Positions 1 to 21,873 of a stretch of DNA of 27,165 nucleotides are shown piece after piece; the first letter of the stretch is position 1, and each line of letters starts with the position of its first letter. Source of the DNA: Bacteroidaceae bacterium (lineage in GTDB: Bacteria; Bacteroidota; Bacteroidia; Bacteroidales; Bacteroidaceae); contig CABIVS010000009.1 of NCBI GenBank assembly GCA_902362375.1, positions 263,177-290,341 of the forward strand. The letters run 5' to 3'. The translations under genes were made by a program, and so were the position numbers. Under the pieces are notes generated by a model. The model was given only the letters and a program-made list of their open reading frames with translations. It ran no database searches and was not told the origin of the DNA.

Positions 1-324
1 GCCCTGACCCGCAGACTCGAACTCTATGACAATTCCCATGTCGCAGCCGTGGCCACTTTCGGAAAGAAAATATCCGATGTACAGATCTACAAGCTGCAAT
101 CGAAAGGCGTCAGAACCGTAGTCATCGGTTACGATGGTGATGCCGTCGAGTCGGTAAAGCGGACGGCTGAACGGCTGAAACCCTATTTCGAGGTTTTCAT
201 CGCGGACATTGCTGATGCCGCCAAAGACTGGGACGAACTCACGGAAGCGGAAATCTACGGGATTTTCGCCTGCCGCCTGCTGTCCGTCCTTGAATACAAA
301 CTCAAAAAAGTACAGGAAAGATGA
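1..324 (+). CDS. DNA primase, TOPRIM-domain C-terminal part (partial, 5' end outside window)
   Basis: The reading frame is open from base 1, so the gene starts upstream; 107 residues are visible. It carries the end of a TOPRIM fold: a strand followed by the metal-binding motif GYDGD and an AVESVKR helix, like the DGDxAG motif of DnaG-type primases, then DWDELTEAEI, which matches the KDPDEL-type segment of that family. Such primases make RNA primers for replication. The stop codon overlaps the start of the next gene (ATGA), and that gene is a replicative polymerase, which supports a replication role. The zinc-binding and helicase-binding ends cannot be judged because the N-terminus is missing. 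A phage or mobile-element primase is most likely given the neighbours. Confidence 0.75.
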   Translation, partial: ALTRRLELYDNSHVAAVATFGKKISDVQIYKLQSKGVRTVVIGYDGDAVESVKRTAERLKPYFEVFIADIADAAKDWDELTEAEIYGIFACRLLSVLEYKLKKVQER

Positions 325-2078
325 TACAGGAACTTTTCTCATGGCTCGATGCACAACGGATAACCTATATCCCGGTCGATACGGAAGTGGTGGATATTCC
401 CGGCTTCGGGCGGCTTTTCACGGCCGACCTGTCGGGAGTGGAATCCATCTTCCGCGGCGACGGGGACAAGCTCGTGTTCAACCTGATGGAAAGTCCGGAT
501 GTGCTGATGGAAGAAGGAATCTTCCATGTGGCCTTCCCGTTCGGCAGGAACTGGTACTACTATGACCTGCGGGAAGAATTCCGTTTCAACCTGCTGAAAT
601 ATATCGGCCGGCCCAAGCCTCCGGTACATGATGTACCTTTCGTGAACCTCGGCATCCATACCTCCTACGAGCTGCTGAACGCCTGCTGCTCGCCGGAAGA
701 TTTGTGCCGCAAGGCGAAATGGCTCGGGCATACGGCTGTCGGCATCTGCGACCGCAATACAATGGCCGCCACGCTGAACCTTCAGAAGGAGTGCGCCAAT
801 ACCGGGCTGAAACATATATTCGGCTACTCGCTGACAATGATGCACGAAGAAGAACGTGTCGGGCTGAAGATTTATGCCTTGGATAACGAGGGGCTGCATA
901 ATCTGCTGCGCATCCAACGGGCCGTCATGGTCGATTCGGAAGACAACACCCTCCGCTATGAACAGCTGCTGATGTATGCCGCAGGTTGTGTGGTGGTTTT
1001 CGCCATCCGTTCCGTCTACTGGATGGCCGGACACCCCAAACAGGTGAAGCGTATCCGGAAAGGTGCCGAAGCGGTCTATTACCAGGTCGACGCCAACGAA
1101 TACAAGGCGGACCGCATCGACAGGGAGCAACTAGAAGCCCTGAAATATTATTTCGGCAACTGTTATGATGCCGACACGGATTCATTTACAGTAGAACCAG
1201 TCCTGATTCCGGACTGCTACTACATGGACAAGGACGATGCAGGGTACAGAATCGTGGTGAACAAGATTGCCACGGGAGCCGCCCATGAACAGAGCGATGA
1301 CCAGTATTTCAAGACAGCGGATGAATTGTATGACACGCTCCGTCCTCTGTTCTCCGGGCAATGGGACTTCGATTCCCTGTTCAGGCGCATGTGCCGTCCC
1401 ACGGTGGAGATTGCCGGACGTGCGGACGCCTCATTCGAGACCGGGCGAATGTTCATGCCGGAATACCGTATGCGACCGGAAGAGCGGGAACGGTATGGTG
1501 ACCGCCGTACGATGTTCCTCCGACTGCTTGACGACGGGCTGGACCGGAAAGTGCCGGAACCGGAGCGGGAACGCTATCGGGAACGGCTGGACGAGGAAGT
1601 CTATATCATTGAATCGACCGACAATGTGGACTATTTCCTGGTGCAGTGGGATATGGTGCGGGAGGCGCACCGGAGAGGCATCGCAACTGGTATAGGTCGC
1701 GGTTCCGCCGGGGGCTCGCTGGTTTCCTACTTGCTTGGCATAACCTCCATCGACCCGCTGAAATACGACCTTATCTTCTCGCGCTTCCTCGTGCCGGAAC
1801 GCTGCGGGCTCAGCTGGAAAGACGAACTGACGGTGCTTGCCCCGGACATCACACTCGGCAAGGGCGAACGCTATGTGGAGATGGAATCTGAAGGCAAGAC
1901 TTACCGTCTGTGCACGGATGCCCGGATGCGGGTAATCCGTAACGGAGAAGAGCGGACGATATACGCAGATGAATTGATGTGTGGCGACGAAATCCTTTTT
2001 GACCGCCGAGATTGCTTGTGGAACCTAAAGGAACTCGAAACCCATGAATCCGACCTACGAACACCACCGTCCCTATGA
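321..2078 (+). CDS. dnaE: DNA polymerase III alpha (DnaE-like), N-terminal half of a fractured gene
   Basis: 585 residues. After about 105 residues of non-standard N-terminus comes a PHP-like domain (from about 107, GIHTSYELL), whose metal ligands are degenerate: ICDRNT stands where an active PHP would have TDH. The thumb/palm follows, with FLVQWDMVREAHRRGIATG and the DnaE signature GRGSAGGS (459-466), then DPLKYDLIFSRFLVPER ending at residue 494. In intact DnaE proteins the next block is the catalytic PDxDxD motif. Here instead there are about 90 residues (from C495) with no polymerase motif, and the ORF stops inside the start of a methyltransferase gene. The catalytic motif is in a separate ORF at 3343-5520. 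ATG at 321 overlaps the primase stop (ATGA). Alone this half lacks all three catalytic aspartates and should be inactive. Confidence 0.9.
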   Translation: MIQELFSWLDAQRITYIPVDTEVVDIPGFGRLFTADLSGVESIFRGDGDKLVFNLMESPDVLMEEGIFHVAFPFGRNWYYYDLREEFRFNLLKYIGRPKPPVHDVPFVNLGIHTSYELLNACCSPEDLCRKAKWLGHTAVGICDRNTMAATLNLQKECANTGLKHIFGYSLTMMHEEERVGLKIYALDNEGLHNLLRIQRAVMVDSEDNTLRYEQLLMYAAGCVVVFAIRSVYWMAGHPKQVKRIRKGAEAVYYQVDANEYKADRIDREQLEALKYYFGNCYDADTDSFTVEPVLIPDCYYMDKDDAGYRIVVNKIATGAAHEQSDDQYFKTADELYDTLRPLFSGQWDFDSLFRRMCRPTVEIAGRADASFETGRMFMPEYRMRPEERERYGDRRTMFLRLLDDGLDRKVPEPERERYRERLDEEVYIIESTDNVDYFLVQWDMVREAHRRGIATGIGRGSAGGSLVSYLLGITSIDPLKYDLIFSRFLVPERCGLSWKDELTVLAPDITLGKGERYVEMESEGKTYRLCTDARMRVIRNGEERTIYADELMCGDEILFDRRDCLWNLKELETHESDLRTPPSL

Positions 2079-2811
2079 CGGTTGCGACCTTTACCGGGGC
2101 GATGCACTCGATGTGCTGCCCCTGCTGGCTGAAGAAGGCATCACTGCCGACATGGTATTGTCAGACCCTCCATACGGTACGACACATTGTCGATGGGACG
2201 CCGTGATAGACATCCCCGGGATGTGGAATGCTGTACAGGGCATATCCAGACCTGACACTCCCGTACTGCTGTTCTGCCAGCATCCTTTTACGAGCCTGCT
2301 GGGCAGCTCCAATCTCCGCAGGCTGCGGTATGCCTGGGTATGGGAGAAGACGCAGGCGACAGGCTTCCTAAACGCCAGGCGTATGCCGATGAAGGCGCAC
2401 GAGGACATTCTGGTCTTTTACGACAGGTTGCCGAAGTATCATCCGATCAAGACGGACGGGCACAAGCGCAAGGTCGTGATGGCCGAACACCAGCGGAAAT
2501 GCGATGCCGGCGAGATATACCGGAAGCACGATAATTTCCGGGATTACATATCCACGGAACGCTATCCGCGCAGTGTGCTGAAATTCAAGACGGACAAGCA
2601 GCTCTCCTGCCTGCACGCGACACAGAAACCTGTCGCCCTGCTGGAATACCTGATACGCACCTACACCGACGAAGGAGACATCGTCCTCGACTTTGCGATG
2701 GGCAGCGGCAGTACAGCCGTGGCCTGCCGGAATACGGGACGCCGGTTCATCGGCGTGGAGATAGACCTGGGAATTTTTCAGACAGCACTAAACCGTATAA
2801 CCCATGGCTGA
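2044..2811 (+). CDS. DNA N6-adenine methyltransferase (beta class) inserted between the polymerase halves
   Basis: 255 residues. Motif IV DPPY (41-44) comes before motif I, DFAMGSGST (216-224), with the following TGRRFIGVEID. This order defines beta-class N6-adenine methyltransferases, which transfer a methyl group from S-adenosylmethionine to adenine. TQKP in the C-terminal part is also typical of this class. Its first 35 bases overlap the end of the N-terminal polymerase ORF in another frame, and its stop overlaps the HNH gene start. It therefore sits in one transcript with the split polymerase. It could protect DNA from the neighbouring nuclease or act as a solitary phage methyltransferase. 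The target sequence cannot be read from the protein. Confidence 0.9.
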   Translation: MNPTYEHHRPYDGCDLYRGDALDVLPLLAEEGITADMVLSDPPYGTTHCRWDAVIDIPGMWNAVQGISRPDTPVLLFCQHPFTSLLGSSNLRRLRYAWVWEKTQATGFLNARRMPMKAHEDILVFYDRLPKYHPIKTDGHKRKVVMAEHQRKCDAGEIYRKHDNFRDYISTERYPRSVLKFKTDKQLSCLHATQKPVALLEYLIRTYTDEGDIVLDFAMGSGSTAVACRNTGRRFIGVEIDLGIFQTALNRITHG

Positions 2812-3346
2812 CACCCGGGAAATCTGGGTGGATATCAAGAACTATGAAGGAAAGTACAAGATCAGCAACCTCGGGCGTGTCAAGAGTCTGGAACGGCAAG
2901 TTTCGCATGACGGTATCACCTGGACACAACCCGAACGTATCATGTGTCATTGGTGTGGGACGACTTCGCTCTATGACTGTGTCCGACTCTACAAGGGCGG
3001 TGTCGGAAAGAAGTTCTCCGTGCACCGTCTGGTGGCACAGCACTTCCTGCCCGACTGGAATCCGGGACTGGAGGTGAACCATATCGACGGGAACCGCGAC
3101 AACAACCGTGCGGATAACCTGGAAATGTGTACGCACCAGCGGAATATGGAACATGCCATAGCGGGTGGCCTCAAACGGGATTACGGCGAGAAAAGCGTGA
3201 ACGCCAAACTGACCAACGGGCAGGCGGAAGAGATACGGGTGAGGTATTCCTCCGGCCAGGCTTCCCAGAACAGCCTGGCAAAACAGTACGGTGTCAGCCG
3301 CCAGACGGTAAGCGCGATAATACGATACAAGAAATATATCAGATGA
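2804..3346 (+). CDS. NUMOD4-HNH homing-type endonuclease with C-terminal helix-turn-helix
   Basis: 180 residues. A NUMOD4 DNA-binding motif spans about 6-30 (EIWVDIKNYEGKYKISNLG, then RVKSLE). The HNH nuclease core follows at about 73-118: HRLVAQHF, VNHIDGN (91-97), DNLEMCT and N114/H117. A C-terminal helix-turn-helix lies at about 136-178 (LAKQYGVSRQTVSAII). This architecture belongs to phage free-standing homing endonucleases, which cut DNA lacking their own gene so that repair copies them in. It overlaps the methyltransferase stop by 8 bases, and its TGA overlaps the ATG of the C-terminal polymerase half (ATGA). Its position exactly in the polymerase break suggests that it, or an ancestor, caused the fracture. 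Alternatively the methyltransferase and HNH could work as a restriction-modification pair. Confidence 0.9.
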   Translation: MADTREIWVDIKNYEGKYKISNLGRVKSLERQVSHDGITWTQPERIMCHWCGTTSLYDCVRLYKGGVGKKFSVHRLVAQHFLPDWNPGLEVNHIDGNRDNNRADNLEMCTHQRNMEHAIAGGLKRDYGEKSVNAKLTNGQAEEIRVRYSSGQASQNSLAKQYGVSRQTVSAIIRYKKYIR

Positions 3347-5520
3347 AAGTAACACATATAAGAATCAGGAAAGCAGACGGACCGCTGACGGTCATGGATG
3401 CCTTTGTGGACAAAGGACTGACAGAAGGCGGCCACGCTTCGCTGCCGGACATAGATGTCGACTATGCCTCCGACCGGCGGCAGGAGATCAAGGATTACCT
3501 GGAAGAACGGTACAACGCGGACGGCCGCCAGCGTGTCTTTTCCGCCGGCACCTTTACCACGATGAAACTGAAAGCCGCCTTGAAGGACGTGGCACGCGTA
3601 CACCGCGTGCCTCACTCCATCGTGAACTATATTACCGCCATGATAGATGACGGCACGGACTGGACAGGACTGTTCAGACAGGCTGCCTTCAACAGAAAAC
3701 TTCGGGACTTTATCCAGACCTATCCGCTGGTCATCGAGGACGTGCAAGGATTGCTCGGACAGCCCAAAGCGGCCTCCATACACGCCTCGGCCATCGTTGT
3801 CACACCGGACACGCGGGACGGCAGGCCCGCCGAATGCTTCGATTTCCTGCCGGTCCGTAAGATGGACGGGGCACTGGTATCGGAGTTCGACGGCTATTCG
3901 GTCGATGAGATCGGATTGTTGAAGGAGGATGTGCTGGCGACAAAGGAACTTGCCAAACTGAGTGCCGTCATCGCGTTGGTCAACCGGAATTTCGGGCAGG
4001 AACTTACTATCGGGCGTATTACGCAGGATATGCTGGAAGACGGGAAGACCTACCGACTGCTCTCGGACGGCAACACGCAGAATGTGTTCCAGTTCTCTTC
4101 GCCGGGCATTACCCGGTTTATCCAGGATGTACAGCCGGAGTGTATCGAGGACCTGATCGCCATCAATGCCCTGTACCGTCCCGCCACACTCGACATCGGT
4201 GCCACCGATGATTATGTCCGTTTCAGGCGTGGCGAAGTGGCCCCGGTCTATAACTACGGCTGTTATGAAGCAACGAAGAACACTTTCGGAATCATGGTCT
4301 ACCAGGAGCAGTTCATGTCCGTTGCTCATACGCTCGGGGGATTCGACCTCGGGAAGACCGACTATCTGCGCAAGGCCATAGGAAAGAAGAAAGCCGACCT
4401 GATGGCCACGCTGAAGGCGGATTTCATTGCCGGAGCCGTCGGGAACGGATGCCCGGACTATGAGGCGGAGGAAATCTGGCACAAGATAGAGGTAGCCGGG
4501 AAATATTCGTTCAACCGTTCCCATGCCGCGGCATACGCCCTTACAGCCTATTGCGGGGCATGGCTCAAGGCCAATTACCCCTCGGCATTCTACACGGTGG
4601 CATTGCAATGGGCGGACGACAAGGAGATTCCTTCGTTGATGGCGGAGATGGAACGCTGCTCGTCGGCCAAGATCGTGCCGCCGGACATCAACCGCTCCGG
4701 GACGGAGTTCTTCACCGACTATGCCACCGATGAAATCTTCTGGTCGCTTACCCGTATCAAACAGGTCGGTGTCAAGACAGTGGAATACATCGTCACGGAA
4801 CGCGACCGGGGCGGGGCATATACCGGTATCGAGAACTTCATCCACCGCATATTCCGTTACAAACTCAAGAAATACAGTTACTGGGACGACCCCGACAACG
4901 CGGAAGAGGCCGTGAAAGTCCCCGTGAACGCCCGGCATGTCAAGCACATGATCCTTGCCGGATGCTTCGACCGTATCGAAAAAGTCGGGGCGGTTACCGA
5001 ACGCTGCGCGCTGCTCGAACGCGCAGCACGGGAACTGGGATTCTCCCTTTCTGAAAAAGACTTCCCGCAGGACATGCGCGGGCGGCATTTCTTCTGGTCG
5101 CAGCAGCAGATTGCCGTGTCGGGCATAGGCAGCATCGATTATCGCCGCATCTTCAACAATTCGGAAGCCCGCAGGCAGGTCAAGGGAAAAGCCTCTTACC
5201 TGACCCTGGACGAGGTGGCACGGGACGAGAACGACGGCAGGCGTGCGACTGTCTGCGCCACGGTGGTGGATGTAACCGAACATACCTACAAGGACAGGGA
5301 GACGGGAAGCCGGAAGCGTTTCGCCAAGCTGACACTCTCCCAGAACAACCGTCTGGCGGAATGTGTATGCTGGAACGACTATTACATGGAACACCACACC
5401 GTGATCCAGTCGCTCAAAGACCGGGTGGTCATCCTCACTGCCGTCATCCGTTACAGCGACTACAACGGATGCAATACATTACAGACCTATAGGAACTCAT
5501 TGTTATTCATTCAATCCTGA
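3343..5520 (+). CDS. dnaE: DNA polymerase III alpha (DnaE-like), C-terminal half with catalytic aspartates
   Basis: 725 residues from ATG 3343, which overlaps the HNH stop as ATGA. An open frame extends upstream to 3127 but only inside the HNH gene, so the ATG is preferred. The first 32 residues match no polymerase motif. Then comes the catalytic block SLPDIDVDYASDRRQEI (PDIDVD at 35-40); a third Asp candidate is D196 in LLKEDVLATKEL. Fingers follow, then an HhH-like segment at about 468-500 (LTRIKQVGVKTVEYIV, FIHRI), and an OB-fold at about 632-715 (ATVCATVVDVTEHTY ... RLAECVCWN). With the first half this completes a normal DnaE order from PHP to OB. No in-frame route joins the halves, since they lie in different frames. 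Function therefore needs assembly of two proteins or trans-splicing. Confidence 0.9.
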   Translation: MKVTHIRIRKADGPLTVMDAFVDKGLTEGGHASLPDIDVDYASDRRQEIKDYLEERYNADGRQRVFSAGTFTTMKLKAALKDVARVHRVPHSIVNYITAMIDDGTDWTGLFRQAAFNRKLRDFIQTYPLVIEDVQGLLGQPKAASIHASAIVVTPDTRDGRPAECFDFLPVRKMDGALVSEFDGYSVDEIGLLKEDVLATKELAKLSAVIALVNRNFGQELTIGRITQDMLEDGKTYRLLSDGNTQNVFQFSSPGITRFIQDVQPECIEDLIAINALYRPATLDIGATDDYVRFRRGEVAPVYNYGCYEATKNTFGIMVYQEQFMSVAHTLGGFDLGKTDYLRKAIGKKKADLMATLKADFIAGAVGNGCPDYEAEEIWHKIEVAGKYSFNRSHAAAYALTAYCGAWLKANYPSAFYTVALQWADDKEIPSLMAEMERCSSAKIVPPDINRSGTEFFTDYATDEIFWSLTRIKQVGVKTVEYIVTERDRGGAYTGIENFIHRIFRYKLKKYSYWDDPDNAEEAVKVPVNARHVKHMILAGCFDRIEKVGAVTERCALLERAARELGFSLSEKDFPQDMRGRHFFWSQQQIAVSGIGSIDYRRIFNNSEARRQVKGKASYLTLDEVARDENDGRRATVCATVVDVTEHTYKDRETGSRKRFAKLTLSQNNRLAECVCWNDYYMEHHTVIQSLKDRVVILTAVIRYSDYNGCNTLQTYRNSLLFIQS

Positions 5521-5526
5521 AAAGAT

Positions 5527-6294
5527 ATGGCACCCAAGACAGAACAGAAGATATATGTAGGCATCGGGCTGGACTTCGAGACCGGAGGGCTGGACTGCCG
5601 TGAATGCGCCTGTACACAGATCGCCCTGCAAGCCGTCCGTTTCGACACATGGCAGGTATTCGACCGCTATCAGGCGTATATCGCCCCCTACGGGAAACAG
5701 GACGCGGGGCTTCCCCGACGCAAGGTGTTGCGTACCCGCCATGAACAGGCGAAAGAACCGGAATATGTCCCGATGAAGTACGAACAGACGGCATTGGACT
5801 ATTCCGCCATTACCATGGAGATGCTGCGCACACAGGGTGTGGACATGAAGAAAGTCGCCGGAGAAGTCATCGCCTTCGCCAAACGCAGCACCCTCTCGAA
5901 GGGCTATCAGTGCAAGCCCGTGCTGGTCGGACAGAACATCGCTTTCGATATCGGATTCCTGCAACAGCTGATGAACTATGCCGGACTGGCCGCCGAGTTT
6001 GAAAAGACCTTTTCCGGTACCAAGGACTATTACGGCAACTTCCAGCCGCACTACATCGACACGCTTGTCATGGGACGGTTGGCTTTTGCCGCTGATCCGG
6101 AGGTTACTTCGTATAAACTGGAACTGGTAGCCTCAAAATTGGGGGTGGAACTGGACGATGCCCACGATGCGGCTGCGGATGTGACGGCCACGCTTGACAT
6201 CCTGGGGGTCTATACCTCCCGTCTGCGCCAGACGGAAGGGGCGGCAATCGCTACACAGAAGAAAGAGAAAACCCGTAAATATTTCAAGATATGA
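5527..6294 (+). CDS. DnaQ-like 3'-5' exonuclease (DEDDh), probable proofreading subunit
   Basis: 255 residues. Exo I motif is GIGLDFETGG with D16 and E18; Exo II is QNIAFDIGF with D141; Exo III is HDAAADV with H213 and D218. This is the DEDDh set of the RNase T/DnaQ superfamily. It follows the polymerase C-terminal half by 6 bases, so it most likely supplies proofreading, since DnaE-type polymerases lack their own exonuclease site. The basic C-terminal tail (KKEKTRKYFKI) has no recognised domain; no clamp-binding motif was identified. Its stop overlaps the next start (ATGA), so it belongs to the same transcript. Confidence 0.88.
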   Translation: MAPKTEQKIYVGIGLDFETGGLDCRECACTQIALQAVRFDTWQVFDRYQAYIAPYGKQDAGLPRRKVLRTRHEQAKEPEYVPMKYEQTALDYSAITMEMLRTQGVDMKKVAGEVIAFAKRSTLSKGYQCKPVLVGQNIAFDIGFLQQLMNYAGLAAEFEKTFSGTKDYYGNFQPHYIDTLVMGRLAFAADPEVTSYKLELVASKLGVELDDAHDAAADVTATLDILGVYTSRLRQTEGAAIATQKKEKTRKYFKI

Positions 6295-7811: not shown

Positions 7812-8397
7812 ATTAAACAGAATACTTCTGGCAACGGTGTTGCTGCTCTGTAGCATCCTCTGGCTGCAGCACCGGCGGACAATACGCCTCACGGAAGAAC
7901 GCGACCGATTCCGCATGAACAGCACCGCACTGCTTTCCGATGTGAAGCGGATGCAGATCGATTCAGCGACGATGGTCCTCGATGCCAAGGCATTGCGGCT
8001 GACTATAGATGAGTATAAAGAGTTCCGTGCCAAGGATGCCGAGACCATCGAAAGGCTAGGCGTGAAAATCAGGAACCTCGAAGTGGCTGCACGGCATGAA
8101 GTCGAAGTGAAAGCCCCGATAGATGCCGCCATCCGTGACACGCTCATTATCCGTGATACCGTTCCACTGCTGCGGCAGAAGGTGGAGATGGTTACACCGT
8201 ATATCCAACTTACCGGGTTGATCGAGAACAAACGGCTCAAAGGCGACATCAAAGTTCCGGTAACCCTCAATCAGGCGGTTTGGGTAGAATACAAGGGATG
8301 GTGGTTCTGGAAGCGTGTAAAGGCTATCCATCAGTCCATTTCCAGTGACAACCCGTATGTGGAAATCAGGTATTCGGAATATATACGCATACAGTGA
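7804..8397 (+). CDS. Membrane-anchored periplasmic coiled-coil protein, last gene of the phage-like operon
   Basis: 197 residues from ATG 7804; an upstream open frame to 7684 lies inside the previous gene. A membrane anchor at about 4-19 (LNRILLATVLLLCSIL) is followed by a long coiled coil to about residue 110. A smaller C-terminal domain includes IRDTVPLLRQKVEMVTPY and VWVEYKGWWFWKRVKAI. It resembles a family common at the lysis/late end of Bacteroidales prophages. A Rz-type spanin role is possible but not shown, and no recognised catalytic motif is present. A strong hairpin terminator follows, so this ends the transcript that began before the window. Confidence 0.65.
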   Translation: MSRLNRILLATVLLLCSILWLQHRRTIRLTEERDRFRMNSTALLSDVKRMQIDSATMVLDAKALRLTIDEYKEFRAKDAETIERLGVKIRNLEVAARHEVEVKAPIDAAIRDTLIIRDTVPLLRQKVEMVTPYIQLTGLIENKRLKGDIKVPVTLNQAVWVEYKGWWFWKRVKAIHQSISSDNPYVEIRYSEYIRIQ

Positions 8398-8421
8398 AAG
8401 AACATGTGTCTTTTATATGTG

Positions 8422-8459
8422 AAAAGTTCCTGTGACGCCGGTGCGCCAAGGGACTTTTT
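8422..8459 (+). terminator. Intrinsic terminator of the phage-like operon
   Basis: AAAAGTTCC (8422-8430) pairs with GGGACTTTT (8450-8458) with one G-U pair, and a T run follows. It lies 25 bases after the last gene of the operon. Confidence 0.75.
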
Positions 8460-8550
8460 GCTTTTAGATGTGTTAAAGGCAGATGAATATTCATGCAATG
8501 GTTTCCCCGGGATTAGTTTTCAGGTGAAAAATTAAATAACAGATATATTC

Positions 8551-8821
8551 ATGGCAACAATAAAAGTTAAATTCCGTGCCTCTTCCGTCGAGATGAAGGA
8601 AGGCTCGCTCTACTATCAAGTGATTCACAACCGTCTGGCAAGACAAGTACATACCGGCTACAAGCTTTTTCCCTCGGAATGGGATGCCGGCATTTCCGAG
8701 ATCGTGATGGATTCCGGCACGGAAGGGGGGGCGCAGGAATTACCTGCTCTCCGTGAAGACTGCCCTAGCAGAAAACTTGTCCCGTTTGAGAAGCATCATC
8801 GCACAGCAGGGATGTTTTTAG
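8551..8821 (+). pseudogene. Tyrosine recombinase, N-terminal remnant with frameshift and truncation
   Basis: The first 60 codons read like the arm-binding N-terminal domain of Bacteroidales tyrosine recombinases (MATIKVKFRASSVEMKEGSL, LYYQVIHNR, TGYKLFPSEWD). At a run of seven G (8725-8731) the frame is lost. One base fewer restores it as RRNYLLSVKTALAENLSRL and RSIIAQQG, but TAG at 8819-8821 then ends it. The core-binding and catalytic domains (R-H-R-Y) are absent downstream, so this cannot recombine DNA. It sits between the phage-like module and the lipoprotein array and could be the broken integrase of either. A sequencing slip in the G run cannot be excluded, but it would not repair the truncation. 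Confidence 0.8.
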
Positions 8822-12700: not shown

Positions 12701-13459
12701 ATGAGCAAAGCAAAAGTAATCTCCGTATTGAATCACAAAGGGGGAGTAGGAAAGACCACAACCACGATCAACCTGGGCGGCGCGTTACGTCAAAAAGGGT
12801 ACAAGGTTCTTTTGATCGACCTTGACGGACAAGCCAACCTGACTGAATCGCTGGGCTTCTCTGCGGAGCTTCCCCAAACGATCTACGGTGCGATGAAAGG
12901 CGAATACGACCTGCCGATCTACGAGCATAAGGACGGCCTTAGCGTCGTTCCCTCCTGCCTGGATCTCTCGGCCGTTGAAACGGAGTTAATCAACGAGGCC
13001 GGGCGGGAACTTATCTTAGCCCACCTTATCAAGGGCCAAAAGGAGAAATTCGATTATATCCTGATCGACTGTCCCCCCTCGCTGTCGCTGCTCACGCTTA
13101 ACGCACTGACGGCCTCGGATCGGCTGATTATCCCGGTTCAGGCTCAATTCCTGGCAATGCGTGGAATGGCCAAACTTATGCAGGTCGTCCACAAGGTGCA
13201 GCAACGTTTGAACTCGGATCTTTCGATAGCCGGGGTTCTGATAACCCAGTACGACGGAAGAAAGAACCTGAACAAGAGCGTTTCGGAACTGGTACAGGAA
13301 ACATTCCAGGGCAAAGTGTTCAGCACCCATATACGCAACGCCATTACGCTGGCCGAAGCCCCGACACAAGGGCAGGATATTTTTCACTATGCCCCCAAAT
13401 CTGCCGGGGCAGAGGACTACGAAAAGGTATGTAACGAACTGCTAACAGAAATAAAGTAA
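12701..13459 (+). CDS. parA: ParA/Soj-family partition ATPase
   Basis: 252 residues. The deviant Walker A motif is NHKGGVGKTTTT (11-22), the A' region VLLIDLDGQANLTESLG starts near 35, and Walker B is YILIDCPPSLSLLTLNAL near 117. QFLAMRGMAKLM follows the ParA layout. There is no N-terminal helix-turn-helix, so this is the short (Ib/Soj-like) form. ParA-type ATPases form ATP-dependent patterns on DNA to segregate plasmids, conjugative elements or chromosomes. It is followed after 4 bases by a ribbon-helix-helix gene and preceded by repeats, a compact type Ib partition locus. No replication or transfer gene is adjacent, so it may be left over from an integrated plasmid or element. Confidence 0.9.
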   Translation: MSKAKVISVLNHKGGVGKTTTTINLGGALRQKGYKVLLIDLDGQANLTESLGFSAELPQTIYGAMKGEYDLPIYEHKDGLSVVPSCLDLSAVETELINEAGRELILAHLIKGQKEKFDYILIDCPPSLSLLTLNALTASDRLIIPVQAQFLAMRGMAKLMQVVHKVQQRLNSDLSIAGVLITQYDGRKNLNKSVSELVQETFQGKVFSTHIRNAITLAEAPTQGQDIFHYAPKSAGAEDYEKVCNELLTEIK

Positions 13460-13908: not shown

Positions 13909-15042
13909 TTAGACGTTTACGTCTTTATCTGCTTTATCTGCATTACCCCAGTCTGTTGTCTTTGCATCAAACTGGATCGGATTCAACACAGCCTCTCCCT
14001 GATCATTATAACCACCACCGAAAATCAACGTGTAGATATGACGCTTGCCCGCTACCCATGTATCTCCGAACGGAACATAAATTGTTTTGTATTCGCTTGC
14101 TGAACCCAACAGATAAGCTCCGGACTGCTGGATTTTGCAGGAGATCGACAGGTAACATTGCTTCGCTTCGTTGGCCTGCGTCGTGGTTTTGGTGGCTGTT
14201 TCGGAAACGTTCCAAGCAGTCAGCGTCTGTGGTCTATTCAGCATAGGAGTATCTGTGGTAATATCGGTAACTGTGGCATTACCATTGACCGTGATGTTTG
14301 CGTTTTGCACTACGGTTAAATTGTACAGATCTGATACACCACTTGGTAAATCATCAAGATCACTCCAACTCCCCGTTCCATCGGCTGCCGCAGGCAATGT
14401 GAAGACGCCGGCTATTTTGACATTATAAATCTTGATCTCCTTGATGTCCACCTGCATGTTAGCATATTCGGTCTTTGCTTTGAATACGACCTGTGACAGA
14501 ATATGTTTGAAATTAAATTTCACTATTCCGTTGTCCATGGCTTTTGTCCGGCCTTTGGCCATGGCATACATCACGTCGTAGTTTGGAACACCGTTTTTAT
14601 ACTCATCGCTGCAGGTATACCTTATCTTTTGAGAAGTCCCGTCGACTTCCCACATATAATTCGTCCACATGTCTGGACTAACCGTTCCGGGATTGAACGC
14701 GTAAAAGTCCAAAGCCTCGGTAGGCCAATAACGAAGATCGCCCGCATTTTTATAATCCCACTTATTATCTTTGTACACGATATTCACTCCGTCATGTCCA
14801 AATTCCGTGTCGACCTTTCCCATGAAGGCAGTACCATCCGCCGTAAAAGCGAACACGTCGAAATCGGTGTTCTTCAAGTTGGTGTTGGTAGTAGGGGTAG
14901 CCCTCGTTTCCGCCGCATTACTTAACACGTTAAAACCAATCGCATTCCGTGAGGAGGTTTCCACATTCGCAATCTCCTCTTCTGAGCAACTCATTAGTAG
15001 TACTCCAAAGATTGCCCAAAGCATTACTGTACTTTTTTTCAT
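13909..15042 (-). CDS. Fimbrillin-family (Mfa1/FimA-like) lipoprotein
   Basis: 377 residues from the Met at 15042. An upstream Met at 15069 would add nine residues before the signal peptide. The lipoprotein signal is MKKSTVMLWAIFGVLLMSC. A propeptide-like stretch follows (NAIGFNVLSNAAETRATPT), with an Arg in the place where fimbrillin precursors are trimmed. The body has typical fimbrillin traits: DFDVFAFTADGTAFMG, LRYWPTEALDFYAF, KFNFKHILSQVVFKAKT and ending with TLIFGGGYNDQG and TTDWGNADKAD. Such proteins polymerise on the surface into fimbriae by strand exchange. It is the last gene of a three-gene operon with DUF3575 and DUF5119 proteins. Confidence 0.85.
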   Translation of the reverse strand: MKKSTVMLWAIFGVLLMSCSEEEIANVETSSRNAIGFNVLSNAAETRATPTTNTNLKNTDFDVFAFTADGTAFMGKVDTEFGHDGVNIVYKDNKWDYKNAGDLRYWPTEALDFYAFNPGTVSPDMWTNYMWEVDGTSQKIRYTCSDEYKNGVPNYDVMYAMAKGRTKAMDNGIVKFNFKHILSQVVFKAKTEYANMQVDIKEIKIYNVKIAGVFTLPAAADGTGSWSDLDDLPSGVSDLYNLTVVQNANITVNGNATVTDITTDTPMLNRPQTLTAWNVSETATKTTTQANEAKQCYLSISCKIQQSGAYLLGSASEYKTIYVPFGDTWVAGKRHIYTLIFGGGYNDQGEAVLNPIQFDAKTTDWGNADKADKDVNV

Positions 15043-15087
15043 AAATAAAAACAATTTAAATTGATACATATAATTAACAAACTCGTA

Positions 15088-16008
15088 TTACAACACTATA
15101 TCCACATTCACATCATCCCAATCATCAACGTCCACATCAAATCCCGGACCGCCACTTCCCGGCTCGGATGGTACCTCATAATCAAAATTCAACACCAGAT
15201 GCACATCACCGATATGCCCCGCTACCGGGACATCATGCACTTGGTCGCTCACGTCCTGTTCCAATACAGACATGCTGCCTGAACGGTTCTTGAGATACAG
15301 CCGGAAAACATTGGGCTCTCCTTCAAGTGCGGAATGTCCAAACGTATAGAATCCGCCTATAATCTGATTCCGTGAAACCATTCCATCAAAGAGCAGGCTC
15401 TCCGAAAGATCGGCGGGCAAACTGTCGCCGGACATGTTAAGCGAGCCGGACATGCCGGAAAGAGCGGCCCGCAAATCCGCCACCCTATCCAGTCCCCGAA
15501 GACCGTTCACCTCATACGTGTAGTGACATACCATGTTTACGGGAGTTAGCCGTACTATCTCCGCGCTTCCTCCCGGAATGTCCTTGAGGATAACTCTGTC
15601 TATATGGTCGCCACACAGCCAGGGTGGGGTGACAGCCATTGTCCGGTTATCCGGCGACTGAACATCACGCGTATCGGCAGTAAAAAGCGTGTAACTGCCG
15701 TTTTCTTTCCAAACCATCCCGTCGGTATCGTAGTTGAAGCAAATTACCCGGTAATCATTCTCGGGGAGCTCCACTTCCCCATCCTCTCCTCCGGGGAAAT
15801 CAAATATCCACGTGTTGCTTTCATCATCGGTCGGATAAAATACGACCCTCATGCCTTCAGGCTTGTCATGATTGGAAATCTTGGTCCAGTCGAATATTAC
15901 CCGCACCGTGGCAAAGTGCGGATGATCGTAACATAAATCCTTATGCTCACAAGCCGTCAGTCCTATCCATAAAAATATGAACACCAGACAAAAGCGTATC
16001 CGTATCAC
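15088..16008 (-). CDS. DUF5119-type lipoprotein of a fimbrial operon
   Basis: 306 residues from GTG 16008. The open frame continues to an ATG at 16056 inside the previous gene. The GTG is preferred because AAAGGAGG lies 6 bases upstream, it overlaps the previous stop as GTGA, and it gives a standard signal peptide, IRFCLVFIFLWIGLTAC. After the lipidated Cys comes EHKDLCYDHPHFATVRVIFDW, the usual start of the DUF5119 family. The C-terminus ends in an acidic Val-Asp run (FDVDVDDWDDVNVDIVL). In Bacteroidales such proteins sit between DUF3575 and fimbrillin genes and are taken as minor fimbrial or accessory subunits. Exact role unknown. Confidence 0.8.
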   Translation of the reverse strand: MIRIRFCLVFIFLWIGLTACEHKDLCYDHPHFATVRVIFDWTKISNHDKPEGMRVVFYPTDDESNTWIFDFPGGEDGEVELPENDYRVICFNYDTDGMVWKENGSYTLFTADTRDVQSPDNRTMAVTPPWLCGDHIDRVILKDIPGGSAEIVRLTPVNMVCHYTYEVNGLRGLDRVADLRAALSGMSGSLNMSGDSLPADLSESLLFDGMVSRNQIIGGFYTFGHSALEGEPNVFRLYLKNRSGSMSVLEQDVSDQVHDVPVAGHIGDVHLVLNFDYEVPSEPGSGGPGFDVDVDDWDDVNVDIVL

Positions 16009-17234
16009 TGCCTGCCTCCTTTCTTCTCGTTGTAGTTGCCACGGCCGATCAACCACACCAAAGAGATACCCGCCTTGGTCGGGCCGAACCAGCGGCGTTT
16101 TTTAGTGGTCTGCCATACATAGTGACCGTCCAAAGGGATGTACTCCTTGTACGATCCTCCAAGGTAGCCGATTCCCAACGTGAAATCCACATTGAACCGA
16201 TGTCCCACAGGTAACGAGTAGCCGTAAGCCACGCCTCCCCCGTAACTCCATTTATCCCCCAAGTAACCTTTCCCACCCAATTCGAAATCATAGGTGACGA
16301 TCTGCCCGTACAATCCGACATGATGCCCGGAAAACGGTTTTTCCACCGCTCTCCGACCGAACCAGCGGCGCAACTCCACATCTCCCCCATAGATACGCCA
16401 ATAATTATGCTTCCGATCACTTTTCCACCAGGCATACATCCAATTCCCGGCCACAGACCAGTTCTTCCCCAAACAGAACTCAACCCCGATGTCAGGTATC
16501 AAAACAGCGTCATAAAGCAAGTTTGTTTTCACCGCCATGCAAAACGGCCGTTTCTTTACCGGAGCTATGACGGTAACGGTATCACGGATGCACAACGTAT
16601 CACGTGTATGTATATATACCGTATCTCTGACGAGATTTATCGGATCACTATCATAGCATATTTTCACCATCGACGAACGAAGTTTCGGAAAATGGAATTT
16701 ATACAAATATGAGTATGGCCTCCCCCCTTTCAGTCTTTTCAGTTCTCCCTCCAAATAAGGGCTGTCCTGGTTTTCCAAACGGACGATCTTCTCCAACAAA
16801 CGAAGGACATCCTCCCTCTCCGGAACATTCACATCCGCTCTCACCATCGTTATAAGTCCGTTCCAGTCGCTTCCCGAAAAATGAAAATCCCTCTCCAATA
16901 CCGGAATCTTTATATAAGGTGATATATACCGCCACAAAACCTCTGCTCGTTTTTCAGACAGCCTTCCATTCAACAGCCCCCCTCCTTCCGGGGAAGCTCC
17001 TCCTATTATTTGAATTTTCCTGATAAGACGGACGGAGTCGTTCAATGCGGAACAGATTTTAGCAAACCGCTCCATCTCGTTCCCATTGTCAAGTAAACAT
17101 GTATCTATATTTACCTTTCCTTGATGAAAATAGATCCTTACCGAATCACGCTTCTCCTGAGCGGATATTTCTCCGCTTATACTCAACACGAGCACGAACA
17201 ATACACATTTAATATAAAAACCTCTTTTCGTCAT
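16005..17234 (-). CDS. DUF3575-family outer-membrane protein of a fimbrial operon
   Basis: 409 residues. A signal peptide (CVLFVLVLSISGEISAQ) is followed at about 30-190 by a region resembling the periplasmic OmpA-type fold of this family (IYFHQGKVNIDTCLLDNG, IQIIGGASPEGG, SEKRAEVLWRYI). A linker with RDTVYIHTRDTLCIRDTVTV comes next. The C-terminal half is beta-barrel-like: MAVKTNLLYDAVLIPDIGVE, WYAWW-type strands, VGLYGQIVTYDFELGGKGYL and GIGYLGGSYKEYIP. First gene of the operon, with a consensus promoter (17328-17297). It probably anchors or secretes the fimbrial components at the outer membrane, by analogy with other DUF3575-fimbrillin loci. Confidence 0.85.
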   Translation of the reverse strand: MTKRGFYIKCVLFVLVLSISGEISAQEKRDSVRIYFHQGKVNIDTCLLDNGNEMERFAKICSALNDSVRLIRKIQIIGGASPEGGGLLNGRLSEKRAEVLWRYISPYIKIPVLERDFHFSGSDWNGLITMVRADVNVPEREDVLRLLEKIVRLENQDSPYLEGELKRLKGGRPYSYLYKFHFPKLRSSMVKICYDSDPINLVRDTVYIHTRDTLCIRDTVTVIAPVKKRPFCMAVKTNLLYDAVLIPDIGVEFCLGKNWSVAGNWMYAWWKSDRKHNYWRIYGGDVELRRWFGRRAVEKPFSGHHVGLYGQIVTYDFELGGKGYLGDKWSYGGGVAYGYSLPVGHRFNVDFTLGIGYLGGSYKEYIPLDGHYVWQTTKKRRWFGPTKAGISLVWLIGRGNYNEKKGGRQ

Positions 17235-18805: not shown

Positions 18806-20011
18806 TTACATAATCTTGAACCTATCACCAAATTTTATGGCAAGTTGCTGTGATATCAGTGCCCAATTAGACAGTGGCATAGTCCATTTCCCACTAATGT
18901 CTCGATAGGCAAGATACACAAGCTTTTCAAGTGCGGTGTCTGACGGGAACACACCTTTGTTCTTCGTTACTTTACGCACCTGACGATGATAGCCCTCAAC
19001 CGTATTGGTTGTGTAGATAAGTTTGCGGATTGCAGGAGTATACTGAAAATATTCCGTAAGACGCTCCCAGTTGTCGCGCCAGGATTTGATTACTATGGGG
19101 TACATCTCACCCCATTTTTCATCAACCATGTCAAGCTGTGCTAATGCAGAATCCTTGCTTACAGCACCATATACGGTCTTGAGATCCTTCAGAAACTCTT
19201 TCTGATGCTTGCTTCCTACATACTTGATTGAGTTACGGATTTGGTGGACTACACATAGCTGAACGGAGGTTTCCGGGAATACACTTTGGATGGCATCAGG
19301 GAATCCCTTAAGACCGTCTACGCAACAAATCAGAATATCACGTACACCACGGTTCTGAAGGTCGGTCATAACATCAAGCCAGAAGTTAGCACCCTCACTC
19401 TCAGATATATACATACCAAGAAGATCCTTGTGACCAGACTTGTTTACACCTAGGACATTGTATATTGCACGAGTGACTGCACGACCCTTATCGTCTTTTA
19501 CCTTGTAGTGAATGGCGTCAAGCCAGCAAATGGCATAGACGGGGTCAAGCATACGGGACTTCCAGGCTGTTATTTCGGGAATAACTCGGTCGGTTATAGC
19601 ACTGATGGTTTCTGCTGAAAGGGTTGTGTTAAACTCACGCTCAAAGTACTTGCTTATATCACGAGTGCTTGTACCAAGAGCATACATGTTGATGATTTGA
19701 TCTGCCATACCTTCAGCAAGAATTGTCTCACGTTTCTTAACTGTCTCCGGTTTAAAAGAACCGTCACGGTCACGAGGGGTTTCGACTATCACCTCTCCAT
19801 ACTTTGTCTGTACGGTCTTGCTCATCTTGCCGTTACGACGATTGCCAGAACTGCAGTCAACGCTATTAAGGTGAGCATCCATCTCACCTTCTAAGGCTGC
19901 GTTTAGGATACGTTCTAGCATAGGAGCCAAAGCTCCGTCTTTACCGAAGAGTGCTTCACCGCTACGCAGCTGCTGGGCTGCTTTCTTGTAGTCTATTTCC
20001 AAATTGGCCAT
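18806..20011 (-). CDS. IS256-family (mutator-type) transposase
   Basis: 401 residues, full length. The start is Met at 20011; the inverted repeat lies 38 bases upstream. The N-terminal DNA-binding part has MLERILNAALEGEMDAHL, a family hallmark. The DDE catalytic triad is visible in CWLDAIHYKVK, ILICCVDGLKGFPDAI and IYTTNTVEGYHRQVRK. CVVHQIRNSIKYV is the C/H signature of mutator transposases. It cuts and rejoins the IS ends through a copy-out circle pathway. No frameshift or stop is seen, so the element may be active. Confidence 0.93.
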   Translation of the reverse strand: MANLEIDYKKAAQQLRSGEALFGKDGALAPMLERILNAALEGEMDAHLNSVDCSSGNRRNGKMSKTVQTKYGEVIVETPRDRDGSFKPETVKKRETILAEGMADQIINMYALGTSTRDISKYFEREFNTTLSAETISAITDRVIPEITAWKSRMLDPVYAICWLDAIHYKVKDDKGRAVTRAIYNVLGVNKSGHKDLLGMYISESEGANFWLDVMTDLQNRGVRDILICCVDGLKGFPDAIQSVFPETSVQLCVVHQIRNSIKYVGSKHQKEFLKDLKTVYGAVSKDSALAQLDMVDEKWGEMYPIVIKSWRDNWERLTEYFQYTPAIRKLIYTTNTVEGYHRQVRKVTKNKGVFPSDTALEKLVYLAYRDISGKWTMPLSNWALISQQLAIKFGDRFKIM

Positions 20012-20068
20012 ATTATAAAAACTGTGTTAAACTATTATTATTATAGCCTGACACAGTTTATTTTACAC

Positions 20069-20173
20069 TCTCCTGACCTTGTGATAATGCTCCCATGTTA
20101 TTTCTCCCAACCAAAACAGATAGTCGAAGAAATAATAATGTCGTTCTTGCTCTTTATATTCCTGTTTCTTCAT
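20069..20173 (-). pseudogene. Membrane-family protein copy 4, truncated by the IS256 element
   Basis: From the ATG at 20173 it reads MKKQEYKEQERHYYFFDYLF then WLGEITWEHYHKVRR, and runs into the IS inverted repeat where GTG TAA ends it. The gene at 11597-12427 starts almost identically (MKKRDYKEQERQRRYYFFDY), and the DNA is also close, including about 20 bases upstream. The rest of the gene is not found on the far side of the IS, so it was deleted or moved. The remaining 34 residues cannot form the membrane protein. Confidence 0.8.
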
Positions 20174-20180
20174 TCTAAAC

Positions 20181-20216
20181 ATAATGTTCGGCAGCCAATC
20201 GCTGTTTATGGCAATC
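20181..20216 (-). repeat. Structured intergenic element, copy B (degenerate, next to the intron)
   Basis: ATAATGTTCGGCAGCCAATC, then GCTGTTTATGGCAATC, matches the first half of the other copies (TAATGTT, GG, TTTATGG loop). The second arm is not clear. It lies 8 bases from the start codon of the truncated gene, and the group II intron begins about 14 bases further on. Confidence 0.45.
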
Positions 20217-20267
20217 TTTTCATTTCGTTATGTAGGTCGGCGGCATTACTGCCGCTTTCCCCATTAA

Positions 20268-20301
20268 GAACTGTACGTGCGACTTTCACCGCATACAGCT
20301 C
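20268..20301 (-). ncRNA. Group II intron domain V (catalytic hairpin)
   Basis: The 34-base hairpin reads GAGCTGTATGCGGTGAAAGT then CGCACGTACAGTTC, with the GAGC start, GAAA tetraloop and GTTC end typical of bacterial domain V. The AGC triad and bulge are intact, so the ribozyme core looks functional. Confidence 0.93.
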
Positions 20302-20382
20302 CGATAATTCTAAATTTAATTCTCATAAAATTAAATCGGCTCATAATCATCTTGCGATGACTTGTCTCCGATAAGGTTTTCT

Positions 20383-21873
20383 TCACGCACGTTGACGGGC
20401 ACTCTTGAGTTTCCGTCTTTCGAAGTATTCGTCCCATAATGGGTCAAACGGATTGGCTTCGCATTTTATCTTTATGTGTCGCTTGATTGGAATATCAGTC
20501 AGTTTATCTAATGTGAACTTCTCCTTTATTCCTCCACATACATATTCAAAACCGAAAATCCAGTTCCTGCCACTTTCATGGATAAAATACTTCTTCCTTA
20601 TCCATTCCCTTGACTTATTGGTATGTCTGCGATATGACCATCTTTTCAGTTGATTTATTAAGATATGGTCGTATCGGCAGAACACTTTCTTTGATACCAC
20701 ATGGCTGTAGTAGTTACCCCATCCCTTTATTATAGGATTTAGCTTCTCTATCAACTCCTGCTGTGATAGTGCCTTACCTTTGGTCAGCACAACCTCATGC
20801 AGTTTGTCAGTGAAACGTTTCTGACTTTTCTTTGACGGCTTTATTAACAATGTTCCGTTGTACTTCCGTACATTGAAGCCTAAGAAATCAACTCCCTCAC
20901 TGATATGTGTTATCAGTGTCTTCTCTTCGGATAGTGTAAGTCCTCTTTCCTTTAAAAAGGCTGTCAACATTCCCTTTATTTCAAGTAATGTCTCCTTTCT
21001 GTCAGCTGTGACAATGAAGTCATCCGCATATCTTACGAGATTGACTTTGGGGCAGTACATCTTTCCATTCACGCAACTTGCCTTATACTTCTCTTTGAGC
21101 ATTCTTTCCATACCGTCAAGAGTTGCATTTGCAAGTGTCGGTGATATGATGCCACCCTGCGGTGTACCTTCAATAGTCGGTTGAAGTAGCTTGTTGAATA
21201 CAACTCCACTTTTAAGCCATTTCCTTAATATCTGCCTGTCGATTCGTACGTTATCGAGAAGCCATTCATGGCTGATATGGTCGAAGCAGCCTTTTATGTC
21301 TCCCTCCAATATCCATTCGGGAGAGCAATCCTTGCTTAGCCATCTGTGGAGTGCGTCTATCGCATCTGCCGTACTTCTGAACTTTCTGAATCCGTAGGAG
21401 TTTGCATCCGCTTCATTCTCCGTTATGGGTTCCAGGGCCATAAGGTACAGCGCCTGCATGGCTCTGTCTTTCATGGTCGGTATTCCCAACGGTCTTGTCT
21501 TGCCGTTTGTCTTAGGTATGTTAACCCTTTTCAATGGGAGGGCTTTATATCCTCTCCGTGTCAAAGAACGTATAGCTTCTATTTTCCTGGCATCGGTATC
21601 CCACTTTATGTGGTCAACCCCTGCCGTGCGTTTACCTTTATTGGATGTCACTTTCCTTACCGCCAATGCCTTGGCTTCGAACGAAGTGACAAGTAAGAAC
21701 TGCAAGGCTTTCACCTTGTTGTACCTCTTTCCTGTATGAGCCTTTGCTATTCGGATTTGCAGCTTTCTAACCTTGCATTCACACTTATGAAAGTCAATGT
21801 CTTTCCATGTAGTGTTATCCTTGGCTGAAGATGCACACTCGGCTTTCGCCTCGCTCCTTTGCTGTTTCTTCAT
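20383..21873 (-). CDS. ltrA: Group II intron reverse transcriptase/maturase, lacking the HNH part
   Basis: 496 residues. The reverse transcriptase blocks are in order: KALPLKRVNIPKTNGKTRPL (RT1-2), SYGFRKFRSTADAI (RT2a/3), WILEGDIKGCFDHI (RT3), GTPQGGIISPTLAN (236-249, RT4) and VRYADDFIVTA (280-290, catalytic YADD, RT5). A maturase X domain follows (KLNPIIKGWGNYYSH), then HIKIKCEANPFDPLWDEYFERR, the segment that in longer relatives leads into a zinc-HNH endonuclease. Here the protein stops 10 residues later, with no CxxC pairs. It helps fold the intron RNA and reverse-transcribes it during retrohoming. It would need a nicked or replicating target to prime, since second-strand cutting is lost. 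Confidence 0.92.
   Translation of the reverse strand: MKKQQRSEAKAECASSAKDNTTWKDIDFHKCECKVRKLQIRIAKAHTGKRYNKVKALQFLLVTSFEAKALAVRKVTSNKGKRTAGVDHIKWDTDARKIEAIRSLTRRGYKALPLKRVNIPKTNGKTRPLGIPTMKDRAMQALYLMALEPITENEADANSYGFRKFRSTADAIDALHRWLSKDCSPEWILEGDIKGCFDHISHEWLLDNVRIDRQILRKWLKSGVVFNKLLQPTIEGTPQGGIISPTLANATLDGMERMLKEKYKASCVNGKMYCPKVNLVRYADDFIVTADRKETLLEIKGMLTAFLKERGLTLSEEKTLITHISEGVDFLGFNVRKYNGTLLIKPSKKSQKRFTDKLHEVVLTKGKALSQQELIEKLNPIIKGWGNYYSHVVSKKVFCRYDHILINQLKRWSYRRHTNKSREWIRKKYFIHESGRNWIFGFEYVCGGIKEKFTLDKLTDIPIKRHIKIKCEANPFDPLWDEYFERRKLKSARQRA

Follow-up and report, generated by a model that had tools for sequence, protein, structure and literature searches.

The 27,165-nucleotide (nt) stretch analysed here, referred to as the window (positions 263,177 to 290,341 of contig CABIVS010000009.1, from the Bacteroidaceae assembly GCA_902362375.1), opens with replication genes of a phage-type element, among them a DnaE-type replicative polymerase which is encoded in two genes. 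An original prediction, made from the sequence alone, had described four open reading frames (ORFs) in which methyltransferase and HNH endonuclease genes separate an N-terminal from a C-terminal polymerase half (N-half and C-half). We confirmed all four, in that order and with overlaps of 35 (N-half/methyltransferase), 8 (methyltransferase/HNH) and 4 bases (HNH/C-half), and the phage-type character of the element was borne out. The locus contains the following features:

1..324, plus strand: C-terminal part of a Toprim primase (Pfam Toprim_2, E 1e-4), the upstream neighbour in the replication operon
321..2078, plus strand: DnaE N-half, PHP and first part of the palm, the polymerase sequence ending in RFLVPER at R494 (Pfam PHP 1.7e-14, DNA_pol3_alpha 1.4e-29)
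1803..2075, plus strand: tail of the N-half, 91 amino acids (aa) from Cys495, apparently a degenerate N-terminal split-intein part (Hint-like; profile, Pfam and fold matches)
2044..2811, plus strand: N6/N4-type DNA methyltransferase, a passenger found between the halves in only some relatives (Pfam N6_N4_Mtase 2.2e-25)
2804..3346, plus strand: free-standing NUMOD4-HNH_3 endonuclease with a helix-turn-helix, a passenger (HNH_3 5.7e-14, NUMOD4 1.5e-11, phrog_59 2e-48)
3343..5520, plus strand: DnaE C-half, remaining palm with the catalytic Asp residues, fingers and HhH (DNA_pol3_alpha 4.8e-27, DNA_pol3_finger 3e-40, HHH_6 2e-14)
3343..3435, plus strand: head of the C-half, 31 aa, putative C-terminal part of a degenerate split intein (block-F-like V-x-D-x-x-V, no terminal Asn)
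3445..3462, plus strand: PDIDVD catalytic motif, the first codons past the seam (P35, D36, D38 and D40 invariant in 11 C-halves)
3340..3445, plus strand: segment exchanged for 649 bp in phage record MT835494, bounded by the points where identity breaks and resumes
5527..6294, plus strand: DEDDh exonuclease, probable proofreading partner (Pfam RNase_T 3.1e-8; phrog_192 'DNA polymerase exonuclease subunit' 7.5e-25)

A DNA primase is annotated in the record of Bacteroides phage BS-TP1 at the position equivalent to 1..324. The C-half has an alternative earlier start, a GTG at 3127, but all of 41 heads compared share the Met1 that stands at 3343 in the window.

The two halves make up one polymerase, as had been predicted. 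The N-half covers positions 4–98 of the Pfam palm profile DNA_pol3_alpha and the C-half, from its residue 32, positions 99–260, so that adjoining profile positions (98 and 99) fall in the two ORFs; phrog_405 puts the cut almost identically (40–440, to N-half residue 495, and 441–1044, from C-half residue 33). The proposed partition of motifs also held, as GRGSAGGSL, a motif on the side of the deoxynucleoside triphosphate (dNTP), is in the N-half and PDIDVD, with the catalytic Asp, is in the C-half. Residue 497 aligns to residue 399 of the Escherichia coli alpha subunit (2hnh), and the cut therefore falls a few residues before the catalytic Asp pair, which we take to be D401 and D403 of the E. 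coli protein, a register backed here by the same alignment. The Asp residues of PDIDVD and D196 are invariant in 11 C-halves, and the PHP domain, palm Asp triad, fingers and HhH that mark a DnaE are all present. As to the predicted domain content, Pfam reported PHP, palm, fingers and HhH, but no OB domain in the C-half.

The same split is found in other genomes. In genome G001 one copy (C12) has the same gene order, with halves 78% and 85% identical to those of the window, and another (C1), compared for its halves and their spacing, has halves 100% identical and equally spaced; MT835494, which is marked UNVERIFIED, has the split plus a second HNH gene. Given these two G001 copies and MT835494, an assembly error, one of two refutations foreseen, is unlikely. 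The other was a second intact DnaE in the element together with inactivating changes in these ORFs, and no second DnaE was found when the whole records of BS-TP1, MT835494 and phi13:1 were queried with the C-half. Among the 120 N-half clusters listed (of 1,866 at E values up to 0.001, among 7,995 scored), 118, which are 58–100% identical, have a separate N-half and all keep a tail starting with CGL; the exceptions are P0017 and P0078. A scan of IMG/VR with the N-half, taking the best 80 of 180 loci, showed a C-half in 69 of the 80, one of them fused (L081). The contigs of the other 11 mostly end soon past the N-half, and L112 and L114 extend about 2 kb without a C-half. Three further scans led to 86 distinct C-half contexts, found by motif pattern and including one outgroup (L213). 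A scan of genome contigs gave at least 80 loci. Of the 80 retained, one (L117) is a true relative, and 79, with matches to approximately residues 90–518 at 24–30%, were set aside as presumably general DnaE.

A tree of 61 of 104 dereplicated rows, built by a quick method, groups 40 rows in one clade (Shimodaira–Hasegawa-like approximate likelihood ratio test, SH-aLRT, 100) in which every row is split except L081. A second split set with short tails (Cellulophaga phi13:1 type, five rows) is placed apart. The minimum of fused/split changes on this tree is three, and because deep branches are partly open or long the number of splits is uncertain.

The genes between the halves vary. Nothing intervenes in L050, L053, L054, L094 and L096, methyltransferase alone in L037 and L049, and HNH alone in L082; methyltransferase and HNH stand together in the window, L039, L040 and L047, and methyltransferase with two HNH genes in L043, L044 and MT835494. 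Many relatives have a Dda-like helicase, as does BS-TP1 (whose C-half spans the record ends). Head and C-half are in one frame in 74 contexts. A helicase is the recognised gene whose end lies within about 90 bases of the head in 26 of these; in 24 it is the N-half, in 10 HNH and in 2 a methyltransferase, the remainder having none recognised (5), a contig edge (5) or a fusion (2; L081 and L213). A looser count, with the range widened to 900 bases, found the N-half in 28, a helicase in 26 and HNH in 9. Since the whole clade is split and relatives carry nothing, a helicase or a methyltransferase only at the break, these comparisons indicate that the break predates the methyltransferase-HNH cassette, which did not cause it, and the earlier suggestion that the cassette fractured the gene was not supported. 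In four of the 120 listed C-half proteins (P0121, P0122, P0123 and P0232; 899–904 aa) NUMOD4-HNH domains are in frame with the polymerase half.

The 91 residues past PER and the 31 ahead of ASLPDIDVD are not ordinary polymerase sequence. Their sizes are near those of an ordinary split intein, about 100 + 35–40 aa (PMC10189870; this and the other papers cited by PMC number are represented here by extracts). The tail of the window starts CGLSWKDE and contains CTDARMRVIRNGEERTIYADELMCGDEILF. In an alignment of 40 tails (A9) Gly-Leu at positions 2–3, an Arg and two Asp are invariant, and the position of the intein block-B His is Ala in all 40; none of 79 tails has the block-B (N3) His. When a profile of the 40 tails was compared with the PDB, the top five matches were inteins (9hth, 2jmz, 2lcj, 2cw7 and 5o9j; E 0.017–0.059), and in the three alignments printed the intein His falls under the tail Ala. 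Intein_splicing is the Pfam family that matches most tails: with E values up to 10 it is hit by 23 of the 40, the best value being 1.2e-4. NCBIfam yielded weak matches to intein-containing models in a few tails, and none that was clearly an intein model. AlphaFold2 predicted confident strands over residues 21–70 of the natural fused insert of L081, and with this model both Foldseek and VIA-align ranked inteins and Hedgehog Hint domains first. The fold-search matches include 4kl5 and 2keq, which we take to be structures of the cyanobacterial DnaE split intein; the VIA-align match at rank 47 (7vzr) was discarded as unrelated. With moderate scores and inteins first, the N-terminal part appears Hint-like in sequence and in predicted fold.

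The head of the window is MKVTHIRIRKADGPLTVMDAFVDKGLTEGGH. Met1, Asp19 and Gly25 are invariant across 41 heads, and a loose block-F-like V-x-D-x-x-V occurs in 53 of 59. In joint modelling of tail and head (A14 alignment) the head has a predicted local distance difference test score (pLDDT) under 50. In pairs of the frame-shifted relatives described below, synonymous and other changes over the 35-codon head are about even (4:3, 10:10, 5:10, 6:12, 9:7, 6:6, 7:9 and 1:0), and counted in this way the codons give no sign of selection on the head as a peptide.

Residues required for ordinary splicing are missing on both sides of the seam. Ala, Gly or Met takes position 1 in 67 of the 83 distinct tails, and the terminal Asn (usually His-Asn) is absent from all 59 heads, which leaves the last step of ordinary splicing without a usable residue. 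In the window position 1 is Cys495, and each of the 118 listed close relatives that have a tail likewise begins it with Cys, which counts against total decay in this clade. As most tails lack the first Cys, and the block-B His and terminal Asn are missing too, covalent joining by ordinary splicing is unlikely; of the two fates originally proposed for the halves, covalent joining or assembly as two chains, the latter would be the likelier. The proposed likeness to fractured genes stands in that a free-standing HNH gene (2804–3346) lies between intein-like halves, and rests on the seam looking intein-derived, but judging by its residues a working split intein is not part of it. An unbroken homologue, which it had been suggested to seek among phages, is present in Bacteroides phage DAC22 (L024:4824-8648), whose uninterrupted DnaE of 1,274 aa carries a 62-aa insert at the same seam site; in L081 (IMGVR_UViG_3300024582_000042) tail and head are continuous within one ORF, and the frame breaks further down. 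A self-splicing intron between the halves was also considered and, for the window, rejected, as Rfam models (E up to 0.5) gave no match at the seam; matches in the window were a group II intron at about 20.2–22.4 kb and, below gathering, a plastid intron model there and Flavo-1 at 18.6 kb.

Other interruptions of phage DnaE genes were noted. The DnaE gene at L229:2500-5200 has, immediately ahead of CDIDVDFC, an insert whose product, judged by eye, seems to be a LAGLIDADG-type endonuclease, and the catalytic motif may be a general homing target. At the GRGS motif of L270, SAAGS is preceded by VNGLAVHN, apparently the end of an intein that is still live.

We think it probable that these gut Bacteroidales phages make their replicative DnaE as two chains, that an ancestral split intein at the seam is dead and is kept as a Hint-like clip, and that the cassette came later. 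In an ancestral dnaE an intein would have sat next to the catalytic motif, between PER and (A)SLPDIDVD. The gene would then have parted at the usual split-intein place, so that the N-half was left with a tail of about 72–91 aa and the C-half with a head of about 31–33 aa. The intein would have lost its first Cys or Ser (in most lineages), its block-B His and its last Asn, while both pieces were retained. Tail and head could pair as the parts of a split intein do and form a Hint-like domain that holds the palm halves in register, a clip for which the tail-head fusion of L081 and, if it is Hint-like, the insert at the same site in DAC22 are natural support. One active site would thus be built from two chains, the dNTP-side motif coming from one and the catalytic Asp from the other, with no cutting or joining. 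The methyltransferase and HNH genes would have arrived later, the HNH gene beside the catalytic codons being turned over by homing; with the gene already in two pieces, the gap would be a harmless landing place.

Several observations weigh against this two-chain, intein-derived reading. The conservation of Cys495 in 118 of the 120 listed close relatives, with a Ser directly after Ala32, would suit a clade that still splices, using Cys495 and Ser33 of the C-half through an unusual mechanism to yield one full-length polymerase; the seam sizes would suit it as well, and the block-B His is reported to be dispensable in one split intein (PMC10189870). We consider this quite improbable, as the terminal Asn is found in no head, the block-B His is Ala, relatives with the same seam start their tails mostly with Ala, Gly or Met, and L081 and DAC22 retain the insert within one ORF. 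The profile of 41 heads matches no intein, and the tails have a weak rival Pfam match to DISARM DrmE_C (18 of 40), from which it could be argued that tail and head are an unrelated small beta domain or linker and that the halves join through the palm itself; the split Pol III alpha of jumbo phages is described, in the extract, without mention of such a domain (PMC7824862). This is the least unlikely of the alternatives, although still an unlikely one, because inteins lead the PDB profile search, the Pfam scan of members and the fold search, and the block-F-like motif, if loose, recurs in most heads.

Two further explanations have far less in their favour. That the methyltransferase-HNH cassette broke an intact dnaE in this element is suggested by its position exactly between the halves and by two precedents for breakage by homing endonucleases, T4 gene 39/60 and the ribonucleotide reductase gene of a phage (PMC3014915, PMC10448857), but with the clade-wide split and the relatives that lack the cassette we give it hardly any credence. 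Scarcely more credible is that the halves are decaying or have other jobs while a host DnaE copies the phage. Nothing speaks for this directly, although another part of G001 contains a 1,303-aa ORF that is DnaE-like (C11). The catalytic Asp and other motifs are invariant in 11 C-halves, the 118 listed N-half clusters keep their tail, and L092 and L283, two relatives with a frame change at the seam (see below), differ over 180 codons of the body by 69 synonymous and 2 other changes.

In a phage nearly identical to that of the window, the sequence beside the catalytic codons has been replaced. The window and MT835494 are 99.0% identical over window positions 1–2858; the first HNH gene of MT835494 is then short of 166 bases net (window 2859–3019 find no match, and the matches on either side overlap by 5 bases) and is therefore broken. 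Identity continues at 97.2% over window 3020–3339, ends at the HNH end and is found again, at 92.6%, from 3446, the first catalytic codons. Between 3339 and 3446 the window has 106 bases, the head, whereas MT835494 has 649, which comprise a second HNH (50% identical), a divergent head, a hairpin and TAAGGCG, a stop with a frame change. The pattern resembles a homing event that exchanged the segment, the arriving HNH having carried a head of its own, if the direction is as we infer. The region of MT835494 at L026:10001-15577 has the appearance of homing-endonuclease turnover at one place, with the old HNH damaged and the new one adjoining the C-half.

A similar arrangement was found in 12 of the 86 distinct contexts, in which the head reads to SLP (or SLPD) and meets a stop, and the C-half resumes in another frame; the window is without such a stop-containing gap element. 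The gap is 7 nt in L026, L043, L044, L091, L111 and L283, 8 nt in L068, L092, L107, L296 and L352, and 11 nt in L347. Hairpin, stop and frame change lie at the following positions (L043 and L044 are near copies):

L026:13462-13511, gap of 7 nt
L043:10531-10580 (also in L044), gap of 7 nt
L068:3841-3891, gap of 8 nt
L091:7555-7601, gap of 7 nt
L092:6000-6050, gap of 8 nt
L107:1684-1734, gap of 8 nt
L111:4613-4653, gap of 7 nt
L283:3570-3619, gap of 7 nt
L296:3570-3620, gap of 8 nt
L347:3570-3623, gap of 11 nt
L352:3570-3620, gap of 8 nt

The element stands just before the catalytic motif, or inside it in L091 and L111, and in every shifted locus the hairpin ends a few bases ahead of the stop. 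Its uninterrupted stem is 9–12 pairs long in 11 shifted loci (the longest run in L091 is 5); the hairpin tables cover 70 and 72 of the 74 in-frame rows, and in the 70 the longest stem is 3–7 in 65 and 8–10 in five, including L049 and L050. Mean folding energy is -19.2 kcal/mol in shifted versus -8.2 in in-frame rows (Mann-Whitney p 9e-8, a guide only since the rows are related). In a covariation alignment of 11 of the shifted loci (A10, omitting L044), eight of ten stem pairs changed on both sides and 95.5% of cells are paired, which none of 500 shuffles equalled. At the same ten positions the 72 in-frame rows pair at 2–9 (mode 5) and the shifted rows at 8–10. The seven shifted rows in the tree need seven changes, so the element seems to have been gained repeatedly. 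The gene ending near the head is HNH in 8 shifted contexts, the N-half in 3 and none recognised in one (L111). L050, which is in frame, carries an almost identical hairpin but no gap and is possibly the empty form for L043.

Synonymous changes exceed others in the body of several shifted pairs besides L092/L283 (L043/L044, 24 to 2; L026/L043, 88 to 33; L092/L296, 71 to 41; L068/L296, 85 to 45). Distant pairs have no such excess (L107/L347, 66 to 68; L107/L352, 25 to 133; L347/L352, 35 to 127), but these counts were made ungapped and unaligned indels are perhaps behind its absence. A plain +1 or -1 frameshift was rejected as the way across, because the net frames of the 7-, 8- and 11-nt gaps differ, even between the close L092 (8 nt) and L283 (7 nt), where a one-base sequencing difference may be the cause. 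An independent start of the C-half was discarded as a general answer, since in L091, L092 and L296 the stretch from the upstream in-frame stop to the anchor codon of the catalytic motif holds no ATG, GTG or TTG. A separate start may occur in L107, L347 and L352, where a GTG lies four or five codons ahead of the anchor, and, less plausibly, in others with an upstream TTG or ATG.

Ribosomes might instead hop over the stop and one or two further bases (five in L347) to a landing triplet, a mechanism proposed because the parts match those of T4 gene 60, namely an upstream HNH, a take-off codon before the stop and a 5' stem-loop. Three points count against a hop: the GTG in L107, L347 and L352, where a separate start could occur; a landing codon (the three bases before coding resumes) that is imperfect in 11 of the 12 loci, sharing 3/3 letters in one, 2/3 in ten and 1/3 in one; and the absence of an HNH directly upstream in 4 of the 12. 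We see the evidence as evenly poised on whether the seam is a hot spot for mobile cassettes of HNH, head, hairpin and hop-gap, which would be several independent counterparts of T4 mobA-gene 60 beside the catalytic motif of a polymerase held by a dead intein.

Parts of this arrangement have precedents. In group 2.2 jumbo phages the Pol III alpha catalytic module exists as two proteins, an NTP-binding part and a part for Mg2+ and template, said likely to reconstitute the enzyme (PMC7824862). The polymerase is thus split into two proteins as in the window, but the jumbo-phage module is minimal, its genes are far apart and it occurs beside a family B polymerase, whereas the DnaE of the window has PHP, fingers and HhH, lies in one operon and carries an intein-like tail and head, no intein being mentioned in the extract on jumbo phages (PMC7824862). 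Phage MIJ3 has a split PolB with a split intein and an HNH gene, and keeps the block-B His and a terminal His-Asn before Ser (PMC6892783). As in MIJ3 and in fractured genes, the gene of the window is in two pieces at an intein with an endonuclease gene between them, but it has lost the splice residues, and the endonuclease gene is a late arrival that not all relatives have. Dassa and others reportedly described fractured genes, with split inteins and a free-standing endonuclease between the pieces, in 2009. The cyanobacterial DnaE split intein also divides a DnaE into two genes, at another site and with active splicing.

A homing endonuclease gene is also known between two working halves of a ribonucleotide reductase gene (PMC10448857). 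There the endonuclease made the break, whereas in the window's clade the break is older. That gene is reportedly Aeh1 nrdA with mobE. T4 genes 39/60 with mobA are, like the locus of the window, a two-gene replication enzyme with an HNH gene between (PMC3014915), and gene 60, like the downstream gene in relatives of the window, is interrupted by a gap that contains a stop and follows a 5' stem-loop (PMC3014915, PMC5009743). The T4 gap is 50 nt, whereas those of the relatives are 7, 8 or 11 nt, with the hairpin upstream of the stop and several apparently separate gains. According to the extract, bypassing in gene 60 seems to be peculiar to T4 (PMC3014915). Searches of open-licence PMC papers turned up neither this seam nor a comparable gap in dnaE.

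A Pol III alpha in two pieces, fractured genes and the T4 cassette are all known already; the bold part is the family of gaps in dnaE, which could be more than a variation on them. If our explanation is true, a dead split intein can persist as the clip of a two-chain enzyme, and these phages have a natural two-part replicative polymerase cut beside its catalytic residues. If the hop is also true, a short-hop family with a covarying 5' hairpin, including close 7- and 8-nt alleles, opens both the mechanism and its link to homing to comparative tests.

The phage of the window belongs perhaps to the proposed Gratiaviridae, Bacteroides phages with DnaG, DnaE and SbcCD whose dnaE tree includes Cellulophaga phage phiST (PMC8008677). 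The split and its seam are not mentioned in the extract of that account (PMC8008677), and phi13:1 (taxonomy line 'Cbastvirus ST'), a relative of phiST, has a split dnaE. Similarity to MT835494 stops at window position 8385 and bacterial-type genes follow further on, so that the phage part may end around 8385–8551. Beyond it are a ParA-like gene (12701–13459), a row of fimbrillin-like, DUF5119 and DUF3575 genes (13909–17234) and, on the minus strand at 18806–22382, a Mutator-family transposase and a group II intron with its own reverse transcriptase.

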